The notes under the pieces were generated by a model. The model worked only from the letters and a program-made list of their open reading frames with translations, made no database searches and was not told where the DNA came from. From Leptolyngbya sp. BC1307 (GTDB lineage: Bacteria > Cyanobacteriota > Cyanobacteriia > Phormidesmidales > Phormidesmidaceae), in the NCBI RefSeq assembly GCF_002286735.1, contig NZ_NRTA01000042.1, positions 1 through 33,558 on the forward strand: a stretch of 33,558 nucleotides of DNA, written 5' to 3'. Both the position numbers and the translations under genes were made by a program. This document shows, piece by piece, positions 19,386-29,572 of this stretch (position 1 is its first letter; every line of letters begins with the position of its first letter).

Positions 19386-21884
19386 TTAAAACCATTCATC
19401 TTCGGCTTCAGCTTTGGTGTTGGTATTGCGCTCAGGGGTCTGCCGCTCAAAGTTGAGATGGATAGAGCGCGACTGCTCGCCGTCGGCGGCGACAGCCTGA
19501 ATCGGATAGTCGATTTGACTGTCGGGGAAGGCGACGTGGAAACGAAAAGTGCCGTCAGGGTTGAGGGGTATCTCCTGATCGCCGACCGTCAGCGTGGCGT
19601 CGGGTTCGGTGGCCCCGTAGACAATCAGCTCAGCTTCGGCCACTAGCCAGAACTGGCGCGGACGCGCAGGCGGCATCGAAGCGCCGCCAATGCCTGACAT
19701 GTTTAAGCCAGATACGTTGAGCCCTGACATATTCGGGCCTAAGGCCATCCCTTCAGGCAACACCTGGTGCATAGAGCCAAACAGAGAGCCCGCTACCCGA
19801 GTGACTGCTTGATCCTGACTGAGGGCCATCAGCTCACTGTAAGCAGGCGGCAGCTCTGTCACAGTAACATCGTCAGTTTTGGCATCGGGGCGACCCAGGC
19901 TACTCACAGTGCGGTCTACGAGGCTTTCCTCCCAGCCGATGGTGAGAAGCTGGTCTTTAACCCAATCTGAGGGGTAGATCGGTGGCACTCGCACCGGCGC
20001 AGACCGGGTCAGGAGCAGCCAGCGGTCGTCGGCAGTGAAGTAACCAATTTCTATGGTGTAGTCGCGATCGCTCACGGGCACTTCGACATACCAAGAGCGG
20101 GCCATCTCGTGGCATTCTTGCTGATGCATACTGTGGGGAGACTGGTGCTGCTGGTCGATATCGGTGACATCGTACAGCCTGAGCATCAGCCGCTGACCGC
20201 CCTGATTGCGCAGCTCCTGTTTGTGCTCGTTGGAGATATCCCAGTAGGCATAGGCCCACTTCGGATCGCGGGGTAAGAGCACAATGCGGCTATCGCCATA
20301 GCCGTCGGGTAGCTCGCTCAGGCCCTCATCTACGGTCGTCAGGTCTAGCTCAGCGGTACTGCGGCTAACCGGTCGGGGGTCGCCTGTCGTGGGGCTGTTT
20401 GAGATAGACCCTTTGAAGATGACAGCGCGATCGCCGATGATCGTCTCTCGGGTCGGTTCAATGTCTAAAACGGTCTCAGTTTCAGCGATGACGGTGTCGC
20501 GAGTTGGCTCAATGATGTCCAAGTTGCTGAAGTCATTGCCAGTAGCTCTACTTGTACTGGAGTCTGCTTCAACCTCCTCTCCAGGCGGTATCGTCTCCGC
20601 GCCAATCGCCCAAAAGTCAGCCATATCAGAAACAGCGGCCCCGGTCACCGCAGAGCCAGCGATCGCCGGATCGGGAATAGCCGGCGCAGAGGTGACTATC
20701 GGCTCAGCGATGCCAGCATCAGCAATCTCGGAGACCACCGGATCAGGGGTCATCGGCTCAGGCATTTCGGAGAGTATCGGCTCGGGCAGCACCGGTTCAG
20801 CGTCAGCCGCAGATTCAGTACTCAGCGGCTCATCATCCAGCGTAAGGTCGAGATTGTCATCCCAGATATCGTCGGTTTCGTCATTCTCTGGAGCAGGCGC
20901 AGACTCAAAACTGGCGGCGGCGATCGCCATGTCTCCGTCTGCCCCGCCCAAGGTCTCAGACGCGCTCAAATCTAAATTAGTCCCTTCTAAGTCAGGCGAT
21001 TCTAAATCTGTTGATTCGTACTCGGGCAGGGTACTAGCGGCCATTCCTACCGGAGGAACGGGTAGGGGTTCGGCTGCAGGCGCGTTCGTTGCCGGAATCA
21101 CCCGCGACTCATCGGTTACCCGGTCAGTCGAGATCACAGACTGGGCGCGATTGGAGACTTCGCGATCGCTTTCTACATCGGTTTCTGGCGGCGGCACCGT
21201 CGCGGTCGGCGCGGTTTGTCTGATCGGCTCAGGTTCATCCGGGCGACGCCGCCTGCCAAAGAGCCAAAAGCCTGCCCCGATCAAACCCAACAGTGGAATC
21301 AGCAGCCACGCGGGAGAGACGCCTTCGTCTACCCCATCGGTAACGACTATGCCATCGGCGGCGGCAGTTTCGCCAAAAGGCAAGCCATTGAGCCCCCACA
21401 GTCCGCGCTGCCCTTGGCTGGCGACAGAGAGTTTGTCATTCCCGTCAAAGGCCAGTTCGGTCACAGCGCTGCCATCGGGCACCGCGTCAAAAGCAGCGCC
21501 TTGAGGTTCACCCTCAGCGACAGTCCAAAACCGCACCTTGCCGGTATCTGCACCGGTTGCTAGCGTTTGGCCATCTTCGCTGAAGGCCAGGGCTGTAACT
21601 GCGCCACCTGTCTCTTCTAAAGGCACAGCGACCGGGCTACCCGTCTCGTCTTCAATGATCACCGCGCCGTCTTCAGTGCGCGCCGTGAGTCCCTCTGGGC
21701 TGGTCGCAGTTGGTGCACGCAGTGATTCTGTTTGAGCGAGCAGAATGGGCCGGTTGCTTGAGGCTAGCAGTGAGCTATCTACCTGGAGCCGGACCGGATG
21801 AGGAGTGGCAGCAGCTCGCTGAACCGGCACGGCGAGAGCTGTTAGCAGACACAGCTGGGCAAGGGTAGAACGGTTAGCGCGCAT
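19386..21884 (-). CDS. WD40 - transmembrane - DUF4912 mosaic protein
   Basis: This 832-residue protein begins with a signal peptide (LAQLCLLTALAVPVQRAAA, cut near residue 26). Residues 60-165 resemble one to two WD40 blades (VTALAFSEDGQTLATGADTGKVRFW). A membrane span at 191-210 (AWLLIPLLGLIGAGFWLFG) is followed by RRRR, predicting that the rest is cytoplasmic. A long acidic Pro/Glu/Ser/Ala-rich, probably disordered region (215-520) contains the repeated IEPTR(D/E)T. A DUF4912 domain follows (about 530-670: RIVLLPRDPKWAYAYWDIS, RSWYVEVPVSDRDYTIEIGY). The C-terminus has a small beta-rich domain (RQFWLVAEAELIVYGAT) and a short NMSGLNVSGLNMSG repeat. DUF4912 proteins are common in cyanobacteria and of unknown function. 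Confidence 0.8.
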   Translation of the reverse strand: MRANRSTLAQLCLLTALAVPVQRAAATPHPVRLQVDSSLLASSNRPILLAQTESLRAPTATSPEGLTARTEDGAVIIEDETGSPVAVPLEETGGAVTALAFSEDGQTLATGADTGKVRFWTVAEGEPQGAAFDAVPDGSAVTELAFDGNDKLSVASQGQRGLWGLNGLPFGETAAADGIVVTDGVDEGVSPAWLLIPLLGLIGAGFWLFGRRRRPDEPEPIRQTAPTATVPPPETDVESDREVSNRAQSVISTDRVTDESRVIPATNAPAAEPLPVPPVGMAASTLPEYESTDLESPDLEGTNLDLSASETLGGADGDMAIAAASFESAPAPENDETDDIWDDNLDLTLDDEPLSTESAADAEPVLPEPILSEMPEPMTPDPVVSEIADAGIAEPIVTSAPAIPDPAIAGSAVTGAAVSDMADFWAIGAETIPPGEEVEADSSTSRATGNDFSNLDIIEPTRDTVIAETETVLDIEPTRETIIGDRAVIFKGSISNSPTTGDPRPVSRSTAELDLTTVDEGLSELPDGYGDSRIVLLPRDPKWAYAYWDISNEHKQELRNQGGQRLMLRLYDVTDIDQQHQSPHSMHQQECHEMARSWYVEVPVSDRDYTIEIGYFTADDRWLLLTRSAPVRVPPIYPSDWVKDQLLTIGWEESLVDRTVSSLGRPDAKTDDVTVTELPPAYSELMALSQDQAVTRVAGSLFGSMHQVLPEGMALGPNMSGLNVSGLNMSGIGGASMPPARPRQFWLVAEAELIVYGATEPDATLTVGDQEIPLNPDGTFRFHVAFPDSQIDYPIQAVAADGEQSRSIHLNFERQTPERNTNTKAEAEDEWF

Positions 21885-21973
21885 GATGAAGCCCGTCTCA
21901 AGATTGTGAAATTATCTTAATATCCCAGTGATTCTTCTGAGAGTCAATCTAGGAAATGGATCGGATGTACACC

Positions 21974-22330
21974 CTATTTGCGTCGCTTGCCGCTACGCTG
22001 GTTGCCGCCGGGCGGCGTCTGATGCGGCCCAAAGTATTTTTCACTGCGGTAGCGCAGCCAAATTCTGAGCGGCTGTGGAATCTTCTCTTTTTGAGCTTTG
22101 GTGAGCTGATTGTAGAGTACCAGGGCGCGATGGCGAAGCCTCTCCTACGGAGAATCGCGCTCCCCCCGACAGGCAGCGTTGCGGTGCGCATCCCACAGCC
22201 CCTTAGCCGCCCGAATTCGGCGAGTGGTCTCTTTGACCAGCGCTTCTCCTTCTAACTTTTTTCCTTCTAGCTTTTTATTGGGCAGGCCATCATCGGACGG
22301 GCCAGTCATTTTTCGCTTAGATTTAGCCAT
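21974..22330 (-). pseudogene. Conserved small basic protein interrupted by a palindromic repeat
   Basis: From ATG 22330 the frame reads MAKSKRKMTGPSDDGLPNKK and on through ALVKETTRRIRAAKGLWDAH, then enters the 36-bp palindrome, where an in-frame TAG (22145-22147) stops it. Past the palindrome the same frame resumes with ALVLYNQLTKAQKEKIPQ and RIWLRYRSEKYFG to a stop at 21974-21976. The two halves look like one soluble helical protein of about 110 residues. Apart from the TAG, the frame is intact over all 119 codons (including both stops), so the insertion kept phase but introduced a stop. It lies 36 bases downstream of the Uma2 gene. I cannot name the family; a truncated product of about 61 residues could still be made. 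Confidence 0.65.
22125..22160 (-). repeat. Palindromic interspersed element, copy A
   Basis: A 36-base element folds as a three-way junction: outer stem GCGCGAT (22125-22131) with ATCGCGC (22154-22160), one inner hairpin GGC-GAA-GCC (22132-22140) and a second TCTCC-TAC-GGAGA (22141-22153), with no unpaired base between stems. Elements with this design are dispersed in many cyanobacterial genomes. This copy sits inside a coding frame. A second, shorter copy in the opposite orientation is at 27501-27529. Confidence 0.8.
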
Positions 22331-22365
22331 AGATAGGTTGAAAGAACATTTGAATGCTCTGAACG

Positions 22366-22938
22366 CTACCAAACGTTCTTCAAATTTAGAGTAAAGCCGG
22401 GTAAAACATCCTCGCCTGATAGCGCAGATGGATTGTCCAGAACTTCAGCAGTAGCCTCAGGGCGATAGATCCAGACCCGCCGCTGCTGACGATTGATCAG
22501 CCATCCGAGCCGGACGCCGCTGCCGAGATATTCGCTCATCTTGGCTTGAGCCTCTGTCAGCACATCGGACGGTGACATCAGTTCTAAGACAAAGTCTGGG
22601 GCAATCGGGGGGAATTTCTCTTTCTCCGCCGGTGACAGCGCATCCCACCGCGCTTGCCGGACAAAAGCGAGATCAGGAGCGCGATCGCCGCCGCCGGGCA
22701 GACTAAAACCAGTAGATGAGTCGAATAGGACGCCTAGCTGAGTGCGTCGATTCCAGTTGCCTAAGTCAAGGCCAATCTCAAAATTACGATTCCCGGTTTC
22801 GCCGCCAGTAGGGGGCATGATTAGCAGATATCCTCCGGGCGTTCGTTCAAATTTCACATCAGGATGGGCCTGACACAGGTCATAAAACTGCTGATCGGTT
22901 AAGCTAGCTAGCGCCTGAAGATCCGTTGTAAAAGTCAT
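22366..22938 (-). CDS. Uma2-family (DUF820) predicted endonuclease
   Basis: This 190-residue protein belongs to the Uma2 family, PD-(D/E)xK nuclease-fold proteins that are greatly expanded in cyanobacteria. Seen: LTDQQFYDLCQAHPDVKFERTPGGYLLIMPPTGG at the N-terminus, the catalytic-type Asp in RAPDLAFV, Glu in APDFVLELMSPSD and the following Lys in EAQAKMSEYL, then RLGWLINRQQRRVWIYRP. Its biological role is not known; members often sit near mobile or accessory DNA. It is divergent from the CDF transporter gene and upstream of the broken gene. Confidence 0.9.
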   Translation of the reverse strand: MTFTTDLQALASLTDQQFYDLCQAHPDVKFERTPGGYLLIMPPTGGETGNRNFEIGLDLGNWNRRTQLGVLFDSSTGFSLPGGGDRAPDLAFVRQARWDALSPAEKEKFPPIAPDFVLELMSPSDVLTEAQAKMSEYLGSGVRLGWLINRQQRRVWIYRPEATAEVLDNPSALSGEDVLPGFTLNLKNVW

Positions 22939-23060
22939 CGCGTTACCGCTTGGGCTGACAAACTGGCTAAGTCTAGCGCCTGTGTCAGCATCATAAGTGC
23001 AATGCTATCTATTTTATTGCTCCCATTGGCGACAGCTCAATTACGACCTAATTTAGGCTT

Positions 23061-23744
23061 ATGCACACTCAGCACTCTTCTGCTCATAGTTGCGCTCAGG
23101 GCCACGCTCACTGCCACAGCGTGCCACCCTCTACACCGGGTCAGGTCAGAGCTTTGAGCGTCGCCCTGATCACGGTGAGCTGTTTTTCGGTAGCGGAGCT
23201 GTGGGTGAGCGCCCATAGCCACAGCCTGGCGCTGCTAGCCGATGCCGGGCATATGATCAGCGATGTGCTGGCGATCGCCCTTGCTCTCTGGACGGCTAAT
23301 CAAGTACAGCAAGCTAAGAGTGACCGGCTCAACGCGGTATCGGCGCTGGTCAATGGCAGCCTGCTGCTGCTGGTCAGCGGCTGGCTAGGGTGGGAGGCGA
23401 TCGCAGCGCTGCGATCGCCCCCGACTGGCATTCTCAGCGGCCCGGTCGCAATTACCGCCGCCATCGGTCTCGGCGTCAATGGCCTCAACGCTTACCTGCT
23501 GCACGCTCACGCCCAAGACAACCTGAATTTGCGAGGCGCTTTTTTGCACATGCTGGCCGATGCTGGTAGCTGCCTGGGCGTGCTGATAGCGGCGCTGCTA
23601 ATCGCTCAGTTTGGCTGGTATTGGACAGATGGTGGCGTGGGGTTAGCGATCGCCCTGCTGATTGCTGCTAGCGCACTGCCGCTCATTCGTCAGAGCTGGG
23701 CCACCCTAAAGGCAATGCCTCAACCCAAACCGCTATCGGATTAA
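23061..23744 (+). CDS. Cation diffusion facilitator transporter (short form)
   Basis: This 227-residue membrane protein exports divalent metal, probably Zn2+, from the cytoplasm by proton exchange. The His-rich N-terminus (HTQHSSAHSCAQGHAHCH) is a likely metal-binding tail. The transport site is formed by LLADAGHMISD in TM2 and HMLADAGSCLGV in TM5, both with the expected His/Asp residues. Six membrane segments are visible. The usual cytoplasmic C-terminal domain (about 80 residues) is absent: the frame ends soon after TM6. Short CDF proteins without that domain are known, so this need not be a defect. No Zur-like box was seen upstream. Confidence 0.88.
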   Translation: MHTQHSSAHSCAQGHAHCHSVPPSTPGQVRALSVALITVSCFSVAELWVSAHSHSLALLADAGHMISDVLAIALALWTANQVQQAKSDRLNAVSALVNGSLLLLVSGWLGWEAIAALRSPPTGILSGPVAITAAIGLGVNGLNAYLLHAHAQDNLNLRGAFLHMLADAGSCLGVLIAALLIAQFGWYWTDGGVGLAIALLIAASALPLIRQSWATLKAMPQPKPLSD

Positions 23745-23828
23745 GACGCTATCAGATTAAGATACAGCGGCTTTATTTCTCAGCGCTGGACGGCACAAGC
23801 CCCTTTCCCCTTTTCCCCTTCCGCCCCT

Positions 23829-24614
23829 ATGAAAGTCACTTCCTGGAATGTCAACTCTATTCGCACCCGCCTGGATCACGTCACCCAATGGCTACAGGCA
23901 AACCCTGTAGACGTGATGTGCTTACAGGAGACGAAAGTCATTGACAAAGATTTTCCGCTGCAGCCCTTTGCCGATATTGGCTACCAGGCATATTTTTACG
24001 GTCAAAAGTCTTATAACGGTGTGGCCTTGCTCAGCCGCGAGCCCCTCACCGATGTGCAAATGGGCTTTGGCGCAGTCTTGGGGGAAGATGCAGTCGGTGA
24101 TTTAGACGATCAAAAGCGAGTGATTAGCGGCTTGCTGGGTGACGTGCGCGTCGTGAATTTATACGTGCCGAATGGGTCTGCGATTGGCAGCGAAAAATAT
24201 GACTACAAGCTGCGCTGGCTAACGCTGCTCAAACAGTATTTGAGTCAGCAGCTTACTGCCCATCCGCTGCTCAGCGTCTGCGGCGATTTTAATATCGCCC
24301 TCGAAAACAAAGATATTTACACCGACAAAAACAGAGACAAGCACATTATGTCTTCGCCGGTAGAGCGCGAAACCTTGCGTGATGTGCTCTCAATCGGCCT
24401 GGCCGACGCCTTTCGCAAGTTTACCGATGAGGGCGGTCACTTTAGCTGGTGGGACTATCGCACCAACTCATTTGTCCGCAATACTGGCTGGCGCATAGAC
24501 CATCACTATTTATCACCTGAGCTGTATGAAAAAGCGGTGGCTTGTACGATTGACACTGAGCCGCGTGGCTTAGAAAGACCAAGCGACCATACGCCAGTGA
24601 CTGTAGAGTACTGA
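23829..24614 (+). CDS. xthA: Exodeoxyribonuclease III
   Basis: This 261-residue enzyme is the main AP endonuclease and 3'-5' exonuclease of base excision repair. All family motifs are visible: SWNVNSIRTRL (Asn ligand), CLQETKV (metal-binding Glu), NLYVPNG (Tyr), CGDFNIALENKDIY (catalytic Asp-Asn), WWDYR, GWRIDHHYLS and SDHTPV with the catalytic His near the C-terminus. Length is standard. It follows the CDF gene by 84 bases on the same strand and may share a transcript; it converges on the small membrane-peptide gene. Confidence 0.96.
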   Translation: MKVTSWNVNSIRTRLDHVTQWLQANPVDVMCLQETKVIDKDFPLQPFADIGYQAYFYGQKSYNGVALLSREPLTDVQMGFGAVLGEDAVGDLDDQKRVISGLLGDVRVVNLYVPNGSAIGSEKYDYKLRWLTLLKQYLSQQLTAHPLLSVCGDFNIALENKDIYTDKNRDKHIMSSPVERETLRDVLSIGLADAFRKFTDEGGHFSWWDYRTNSFVRNTGWRIDHHYLSPELYEKAVACTIDTEPRGLERPSDHTPVTVEY

Positions 24615-28140: not shown

Positions 28141-28512
28141 TCTCTCAGGGCACTGCTCTCAGCACCAGTCTCAACACCAGATAACGGCAACGCAAAAGCG
28201 ACCATTGGGCGCAACTGGCACACCAAAAAACAACGAGTTTGCGTCCATAGACAGACATATTAGCTAGTCCACCCAGACAAAGTGTCCATACCATTGGCGC
28301 AGTCACTAGTCCCAAGCGATACAACTTAAACATGCGAAACGAAACAAAGGTTTCTAACCCAAACAACACTTTCTTTCGCAACCTTCTCTACCTTGCATTT
28401 TTGGTGTTGTGCCCCTTAGCAAAGCCCACCGAAAAGAGCAGAGGCCGCAGAAGTCCTACAGTTCACTCCTTCAACGTTCTCTGTTGTCTCTACATCTTTT
28501 GAGGATACTTCC
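28141..28512. other. Long gene-free stretch upstream of the duplicated porin-like genes
   Basis: No convincing gene is seen in these 372 bases between tag (minus) and the first beta-barrel gene (plus). It holds the divergent control region. An open frame on the minus strand lacks a plausible start and family features. The last 15 bases carry the ribosome site of the next gene within CTTTTGAGGA. I could not identify a confident promoter. Confidence 0.5.
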
Positions 28513-28980
28513 ATGAAATTTTCTCGTCTTTCTGCTACTTTCGCTGTCGCTGCTGCCGCTCTTCTAGCAGTGCCCTTCGGCGCTCAAGCTCAAGAAGCCC
28601 CTAACTACAACTACGTCGGCATCGGCGGCGGCGACAACGGCTTTGTTGTCAACGGTAAAATCTCTGTTGCTGATAACGTCTCCATCCGCCCTGAAATCGC
28701 GACTGACTTTAACTTCGGCGACAGCGAAGATGTCTCCTACCTCGTACCTGTCACCTACGACTTCAACACCATCGGCAACGGTAGAACCGCTTTTAACCCC
28801 TTCCTCGGGGCTGGCGTCTCTGGTGACATTGGCAACGACAGCAATATCGACTTCTCGCTCGTAGCGGGTTCTGACTACCGCTTTGCTGACCGCTATGTCG
28901 CCAATGCCTCGGTCAACTACACCCCCTTCGGCAACAACGACGGAGTTGGCTTCACTGTCGGGGTTGGCCGCACCTTCTAA
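28513..28980 (+). CDS. Outer-membrane beta-barrel protein, tandem copy 1
   Basis: This 155-residue protein has a signal peptide (KFSRLSATFAVAAAALLAVP, cut after AQA at 26) and a mature part of alternating polar and hydrophobic strands, e.g. YNYVGIGGG, NGFVVNGKISV, VSIRPEIATDF, VSYLVPVTYDF, FNPFLGAGVSG, IDFSLVAGSDYRF, YVANASVNYTPF and GVGFTVGVGRTF, ending in Phe as most outer-membrane barrels do. About eight strands are expected, like the OmpA/OmpX size class. TGAGGA provides the ribosome site. The downstream copy is identical at every base. Confidence 0.85.
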   Translation: MKFSRLSATFAVAAAALLAVPFGAQAQEAPNYNYVGIGGGDNGFVVNGKISVADNVSIRPEIATDFNFGDSEDVSYLVPVTYDFNTIGNGRTAFNPFLGAGVSGDIGNDSNIDFSLVAGSDYRFADRYVANASVNYTPFGNNDGVGFTVGVGRTF

Positions 28981-29104
28981 GTATCGCCTGTAGCATCTAC
29001 CGGCATAGCATCTGCCAGGGCGGCTAAAGCCAATACTTTGACGGATTAGCCGCCTGCCTCTCTGCATCGCTCTTAATTTATAACTACCTTTTGAGGACTG
29101 TTCC

Positions 29105-29572
29105 ATGAAATTTTCTCGTCTTTCTGCTACTTTCGCTGTCGCTGCTGCCGCTCTTCTAGCAGTGCCCTTCGGCGCTCAAGCTCAAGAAGCCCCTAACTAC
29201 AACTACGTCGGCATCGGCGGCGGCGACAACGGCTTTGTTGTCAACGGTAAAATCTCTGTTGCTGATAACGTCTCCATCCGCCCTGAAATCGCGACTGACT
29301 TTAACTTCGGCGACAGCGAAGATGTCTCCTACCTCGTACCTGTCACCTACGACTTCAACACCATCGGCAACGGTAGAACCGCTTTTAACCCCTTCCTCGG
29401 GGCTGGCGTCTCTGGTGACATTGGCAACGACAGCAATATCGACTTCTCGCTCGTAGCGGGTTCTGACTACCGCTTTGCTGACCGCTATGTCGCCAATGCC
29501 TCGGTCAACTACACCCCCTTCGGCAACAACGACGGAGTTGGCTTCACTGTCGGGGTTGGCCGCACCTTCTAA
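29105..29572 (+). CDS. Outer-membrane beta-barrel protein, tandem copy 2
   Basis: This gene is base-for-base identical to the copy at 28513, so it encodes the same 155-residue eight-stranded barrel with signal peptide and C-terminal Phe. The two genes are separated by 124 bases of unrelated sequence; only the CTTTTGAGGA ribosome-site segment and the four bases before the ATG are shared outside the frame. A strong terminator follows at 29644. Two copies may simply raise dosage of an abundant envelope protein. Confidence 0.85.
   Translation: MKFSRLSATFAVAAAALLAVPFGAQAQEAPNYNYVGIGGGDNGFVVNGKISVADNVSIRPEIATDFNFGDSEDVSYLVPVTYDFNTIGNGRTAFNPFLGAGVSGDIGNDSNIDFSLVAGSDYRFADRYVANASVNYTPFGNNDGVGFTVGVGRTF

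Follow-up and report, generated by a model that had tools for sequence, protein, structure and literature searches.

In the 33,558-nt stretch of Leptolyngbya sp. BC1307 DNA analysed here (contig NZ_NRTA01000042.1, in the following called the window), a small conserved gene very likely carries a 24-nt insertion of the SDR5 type within a HIP1 octamer, GCGATCGC, and a TAG in one loop of the inserted element most likely ends its translation. What had looked like an odd palindrome becomes a precise pair of filled and empty sites for one of the smallest proposed mobile elements. A survey of related genomes suggests that the element frequently forms a coding insertion in the Phormidesmis/Nodosilinea family, with one HIP1 reading frame over-represented. 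The single host gene itself is of small importance, and the effect of such tiny repeats on proteins becomes directly testable.

The host gene occupies positions 21974-22330 of the minus strand and forms a single frame of 118 codons followed by a terminal stop. The initial annotation had described one frame running from 22330 downward with a single TAG inside a palindrome, and translation confirms this: the sole in-frame stop among the 118 codons is the TAG at 22147-22145, within a 36-bp palindrome that spans 22125-22160. Upstream of it, 61 residues are still translated (22148-22330, minus strand), which in the structural model of an unfilled orthologue (L135) comprise helix 1 and the first half of helix 2; the post-stop part (21974-22144, minus strand) encodes the second half of helix 2, helices 3-4 and an invariant LRxWLRYRSEKYFG segment. 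Both halves had been described as typical protein, which agrees with their conservation in cyanobacteria. With the stop entered as X, a protein search at E <= 0.01 gave matches in 67 of 143 genomes, one of which is that of the window, and apart from a weak match in G142 (E 0.007, ending at residue 73) all of them extend well beyond the stop position on both sides. Searches against Pfam and NCBIfam returned no family at cut-off, the sole Pfam lines being weak (E 0.1 and 0.075), and Rfam gave no match over positions 20000-24000. No second copy of the gene was found in the window genome; the only other match has an E value of just 0.005 and overlaps with a further repeat copy. Elsewhere in the window, two 300-nt direct copies (28496-28795 and 29088-29387) are 99% identical and lie 592 bp apart.

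The exact insertion, its target and both of its ends are directly established by an unfilled site in L006, the closest relative found, which belongs to the same genus. This site reads GAA CGC GAT CGC GCC, and the window reads GAG CGC GAT, eight additional codons and CGC GCC. The initial annotation took the element to be 36 bp long; by the L006 empty site, the inserted DNA amounts to 24 bp (22130-22153), and the outer 12 bases of the palindrome belong to the host gene. These are the left part of the target, GCG (22127-22129), its right part, ATCGC (22154-22158), and two bases per side. L006 carries the intact octamer GCGATCGC exactly at the insertion site, which places the break at GCG^ATCGC. 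Read on the plus strand, the element consists of AT, a first hairpin GGC-GAA-GCC with a 3-bp stem (22132-22140) and a second hairpin TCTCC-TAC-GGAGA with a 5-bp stem (22141-22153), both with a variable 3-nt loop. The uninterrupted orthologues that had been suggested as a means of fixing the ends thus exist and define them; the target duplication that had been considered is not needed, since AT stands at both edges and leaves the breakpoint ambiguous by 0-2 bp.

These features suggest a simple course of events. An SDR5-type element of 24 nt with two hairpins would have entered GCGATCGC between GCG and ATCGC of the host gene in this Phormidesmis-like, filamentous cyanobacterium, probably by movement via a folded single strand. 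As 24 divides by three, the reading frame survives, and such copies are often read as eight additional residues. The second loop, TAC on the plus strand, reads TAG in the landing frame and orientation, and translation would most likely stop after 61 residues with loss of the C-terminal half. The view that a palindrome entered the gene without frame loss while creating one amber stop agrees with the empty site in L006 and with the other orthologues.

For these, 109 orthologous loci were collected, 29 from the 143-genome search and the best 80 of 431, with some genomes overlapping. They represent 89 distinct orthologous sites, 88 of which have normal spacing, and one (L197) eight additional codons. 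HIP1 is present at exactly the insertion point in 28 of the 89 by hand count, L020 being omitted as its HIP1 lies two codons further on. Three other members of the genus (L007-L009) lack HIP1 at the site and carry no insert in it, and in a further two (G004 and G005) the protein search did not find the host gene. A pattern search of 388 genomes of the class detected a 24-nt insert at this codon of the host gene in the window only, where the pattern requires set flanking bases (CGCGC after the insert) and hence tests window-like sites. Orthologues with the same inserted residues, named in the initial annotation as evidence against an insertion, were not encountered; the one site that is filled holds a different, related insert.

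This second insert, in L197 (Symplocastrum torsivum), is 24 nt long, lies in the same octamer of the same gene and leaves the frame open. It occurs in two neighbouring gene copies, at 1501-1770 and about 2893-2970. Its sequence is unlike that of the window copy, with the two-hairpin layout kept as judged by eye, and as it faces the other way relative to the gene, it looks independent of the window's. When the unfilled protein is modelled (L135, mean pLDDT 78), the point of insertion falls after residue 42, within helix 2 (residues 34-50). The model of L197 with its insert (mean pLDDT 83) places the extra residues, about 42-50, within a helix at 40-56, and the residues preceding this helix are less ordered. 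With an insertion point inside helix 2, the site is not an obvious surface loop, and the case for tolerance on structural grounds is weaker for it. Judging from the open frame in L197, insertion by itself need not destroy the host gene; it is the two open gene copies of L197, and these only, that point to tolerance of the insert.

Membership of the element in a repeat family of its genome is likewise directly observed. A 32-base pattern with free loops and up to three mismatches gave 30 matches in the 4.9-Mb genome, compared with 0 for the reversed control, which lies far outside chance expectation. The loops vary highly among the 30 copies, while changes in the stems are partly compensated. 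The outer pair of hairpin 2 is T-A in 23 copies, A-T in five, C-G in one and G-C in one, so that seven of seven variants are compensated. In hairpin 1, one pair is G-C in 27 copies, C-G in two and unpaired in one, and the next is G-C in 28 and A-T in two. Positions 4 and 29 fail to pair in 15 of the 30 copies, and uncompensated single changes are present at several further stem pairs.

The family extends to related genomes. At least one exact HIP1-flanked copy was found in 30 of 57 genomes of the family sample, with 85 copies in total, and the core alone in 42 of the 57 with 151 copies; a phylum-wide sample of 386 genomes yielded copies in 8, the window genome counted. A contig scan, which may omit the window's genome or near ones, gave no copy with the window's exact loops. 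Exact 24-nt empty sites with the same breakpoint were obtained for all three further genes tested, bringing the number of genes whose empty sites give an element length of 24 nt to four. Across the three, a 24-nt gap is seen in all 16 aligned sequences of relatives, with the octamer exact in some and altered in others; this count omits the filled loci themselves (L246, L254, L259) and a short fragment (L258), and includes two sequences that overlap on one contig (L252/L253). The flanks of 30 sampled core copies contain the HIP1 parts with at most two mismatches in 24 cases, 15 of them exact, and are unlike HIP1 in the remaining six (L215, L220, L224, L225, L226 and L237). In L094 and L076, SDR5-type copies recur within one long ORF at spacings of 144 bp or a multiple of this, as if there were one copy per unit of a coding repeat.

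The codons beyond the stop bear on the fate of the gene. Between the window and L006 they differ with a dN of 0.105 and a dS of 1.15 and thus still appear to be under constraint. The initial annotation's suggestion of a fresh interruption is made plausible by the polarised post-stop changes, nine synonymous and one non-synonymous on the window branch against four and five on the L006 branch, although these counts are small and readthrough fits them equally. In one column upstream of the stop, C is found in 65 and N in three of 68 distinct orthologues, with three loci unparsed, and T in the window. A recent insertion explains these substitution patterns best; readthrough would explain them too. 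We infer that translation ends at the TAG, which inactivates the gene, and that the insertion is recent; the host gene has most likely been truncated recently.

If ribosomes read past the TAG, or bypassed the element, often enough to be useful, full-length protein would be made and the gene would be regulated rather than dead. We regard this as unlikely. The low dN/dS downstream of the stop would suit it, although a recent insertion accounts for this equally well, and the related, stop-free insert in both Symplocastrum gene copies suggests that the added residues may in themselves be tolerable. In-frame stops that are conserved have been reported as frequent in bacteria (PMC7918605). General suppression is, however, unlikely in this organism, since 12 of 23 long ORFs, picked mechanically from the window, end in TAG. 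An obeyed stop could also leave the 61-residue product as the functional form, the frame before the stop being intact. This is quite improbable, as the truncation removes half of helix 2 and helices 3-4 of the L135 model, the invariant segment falls after the stop, and no stop occurs within the examined stretch at any of the other 89 orthologous sites.

The insertion itself could be doubted on two grounds. The assembly is a draft of 222 contigs, and the TAG or the entire insert could in principle be an assembly or sequencing artefact; yet the element is a coherent member of its family whose stems pair and whose junctions are those of HIP1, just as at other loci, which makes an artefact highly improbable. 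As the L197 gene has an insert at the same point, the palindrome might alternatively be an old, inherited part of the gene family rather than a lineage-specific insertion. The L197 copy is, however, of different sequence and opposite in orientation relative to the gene, and the insert is absent from the four other members of the genus where the gene was detected, out of six searched, and from 88 of the 89 sites, so that we give inheritance almost no credence. A lineage-specific insertion of an SDR5-type element, followed by termination at its TAG, hence remains our preferred explanation.

To place the window copy among others, we combined the copies of the window genome (up to three mismatches) with those of the family sample, which gave 111 distinct copies. 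After removal of the element by script, 66 of them sit well inside a long ORF and are read as eight codons. These gene-internal calls rest on a crude ORF rule rather than on annotation: the empty-site ORF must have at least 150 codons, at least 10 before and at least 5 after the site, and exceed the next frame by more than 1.4x. The window copy, with 124 codons, does not satisfy the rule and is hence outside the 66. For hosts in the window genome, 20 of 24 listed ORFs were run against Pfam, and 17 matched at E <= 0.001, some of them below the curated cut-off; L003, L037 and L060 gave no Pfam match. The host genes include MnmG, a multicopper oxidase, a photolyase, an XPB-like helicase, an ABC transporter and an N-acylglucosamine epimerase. 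Open inserts at the same place are apparently common to species within a genus (L072 with L078 and L097; L080 with L105) and even across genera (L065 with L085; L064 with L066 and L088), and the lengthened proteins are therefore taken to work. Where the loops differ, shared inserts may stem from two separate insertions. The homologous ORFs L098 and L103 contain SDR5-type inserts that differ in frame and orientation, probably two separate insertions in one gene.

Of the 111 copies, as many as 78 are open in all six frames. The frame GC GAT CGC was found for 33 of 55 gene-internal copies and for 38 of 129 HIP1 sites that lie unfilled in the same stretches (odds ratio 3.6, P 0.00013), with one member per homology cluster retained from 66 copies and 189 HIP1 sites. 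We read this excess as selection on the protein, with the reservations that the ORF rule is a rough one and that the hydropathy of the flanks did not differ between these 55 filled and 129 unfilled sites (P 0.25). Small in-frame variable segments within genes are described as common in other bacteria (PMC2884548), so that there is nothing special in an in-frame insertion as such.

The unusual feature of the window copy is its stop and not the coding insertion. Placed in the window gene in the same frame and orientation, 7 of the 111 copies would produce a stop. Among the gene-internal copies two of 66 (L087 and L101) make a stop, with 3.0 expected when copies are shuffled among sites. For these 66 the count gives no indication of stop avoidance (P(<=2) = 0.39), and the window stop looks like an ordinary unlucky draw. 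Outside the ORF rule, stops are made by the window's own copy and by one of three copies in L127. In the chosen ORFs the stop codons are TAG in L087, TAA in L101 and TAG in L127. Tentatively, and with considerable doubt, SDR5 could be regarded as a mobile peptide module, whose conserved stems and variable loops would add eight residues at HIP1 sites in genes; selection would filter the insertions by frame, enzymes would be diversified over long times, and stops would be an occasional cost.

Several known systems resemble the element. With REP sequences and their TnpAREP/RAYT proteins it shares the nature of a small hairpin repeat, while differing in its HIP1 target. Membership among the REPs was rejected, as inspection of the 30 matches by eye found no GT[AG]G (GTAG or GTGG) at the foot of the hairpins, the definition given in sections of PMC6006769. 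The same sections describe in-frame REP insertions inside tnpAREP genes of subclass 2.4, a subclass abundant in Cyanobacteria. Y1_Tnp is present in 51 of the 57 genomes of the family sample, and the number of copies does not correlate with that of Y1_Tnp across these 57 (rho 0.07, P 0.58); G053 has eight core copies and no Y1_Tnp match. The palindromic elements of Rickettsia, like other protein-coding palindromes, enter genes in frame and are translated. They have an in-frame coding palindrome in common with the element described here and differ from it in length, about 100-150 bp compared with 24 bp, and in the fixed 8-bp target found here. HIP1 itself (GCGATCGC), a common palindrome of 8 bases, is the target octamer and not the inserted element.

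The repeat family appears to be the published SDR5, a name that here rests on insertion point, length and structure rather than on a match to the published consensus. According to sections of Elhai 2015 (PMC4390886), SDR5 inserts between the third and fourth bases of HIP1, and insertion of SDR5 in HIP1 is thus already published. In the literature searched, with the 2008 source paper outside its scope, we found no report of in-frame coding insertions or of a frame preference of SDR5, and we claim no priority. The same insertion point in HIP1, the short and dispersed copies, the two hairpins with compensatory changes and the existence of empty sites are all shared with SDR5. The length also fits, as SDR elements range from 21 to 27 nt and the window element has 24 nt. 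In 2008, Elhai and colleagues are said to have described SDR5 as short, as lying within HIP1 exclusively and as having a secondary structure supported by compensatory changes; here, in contrast, 6 of 30 sampled core copies are without HIP1-like flanks. The copies described here further differ in that they occur in the Phormidesmis/Nodosilinea family, which we take to be non-heterocystous, that they lie largely within genes, and that the one in the window makes a stop.
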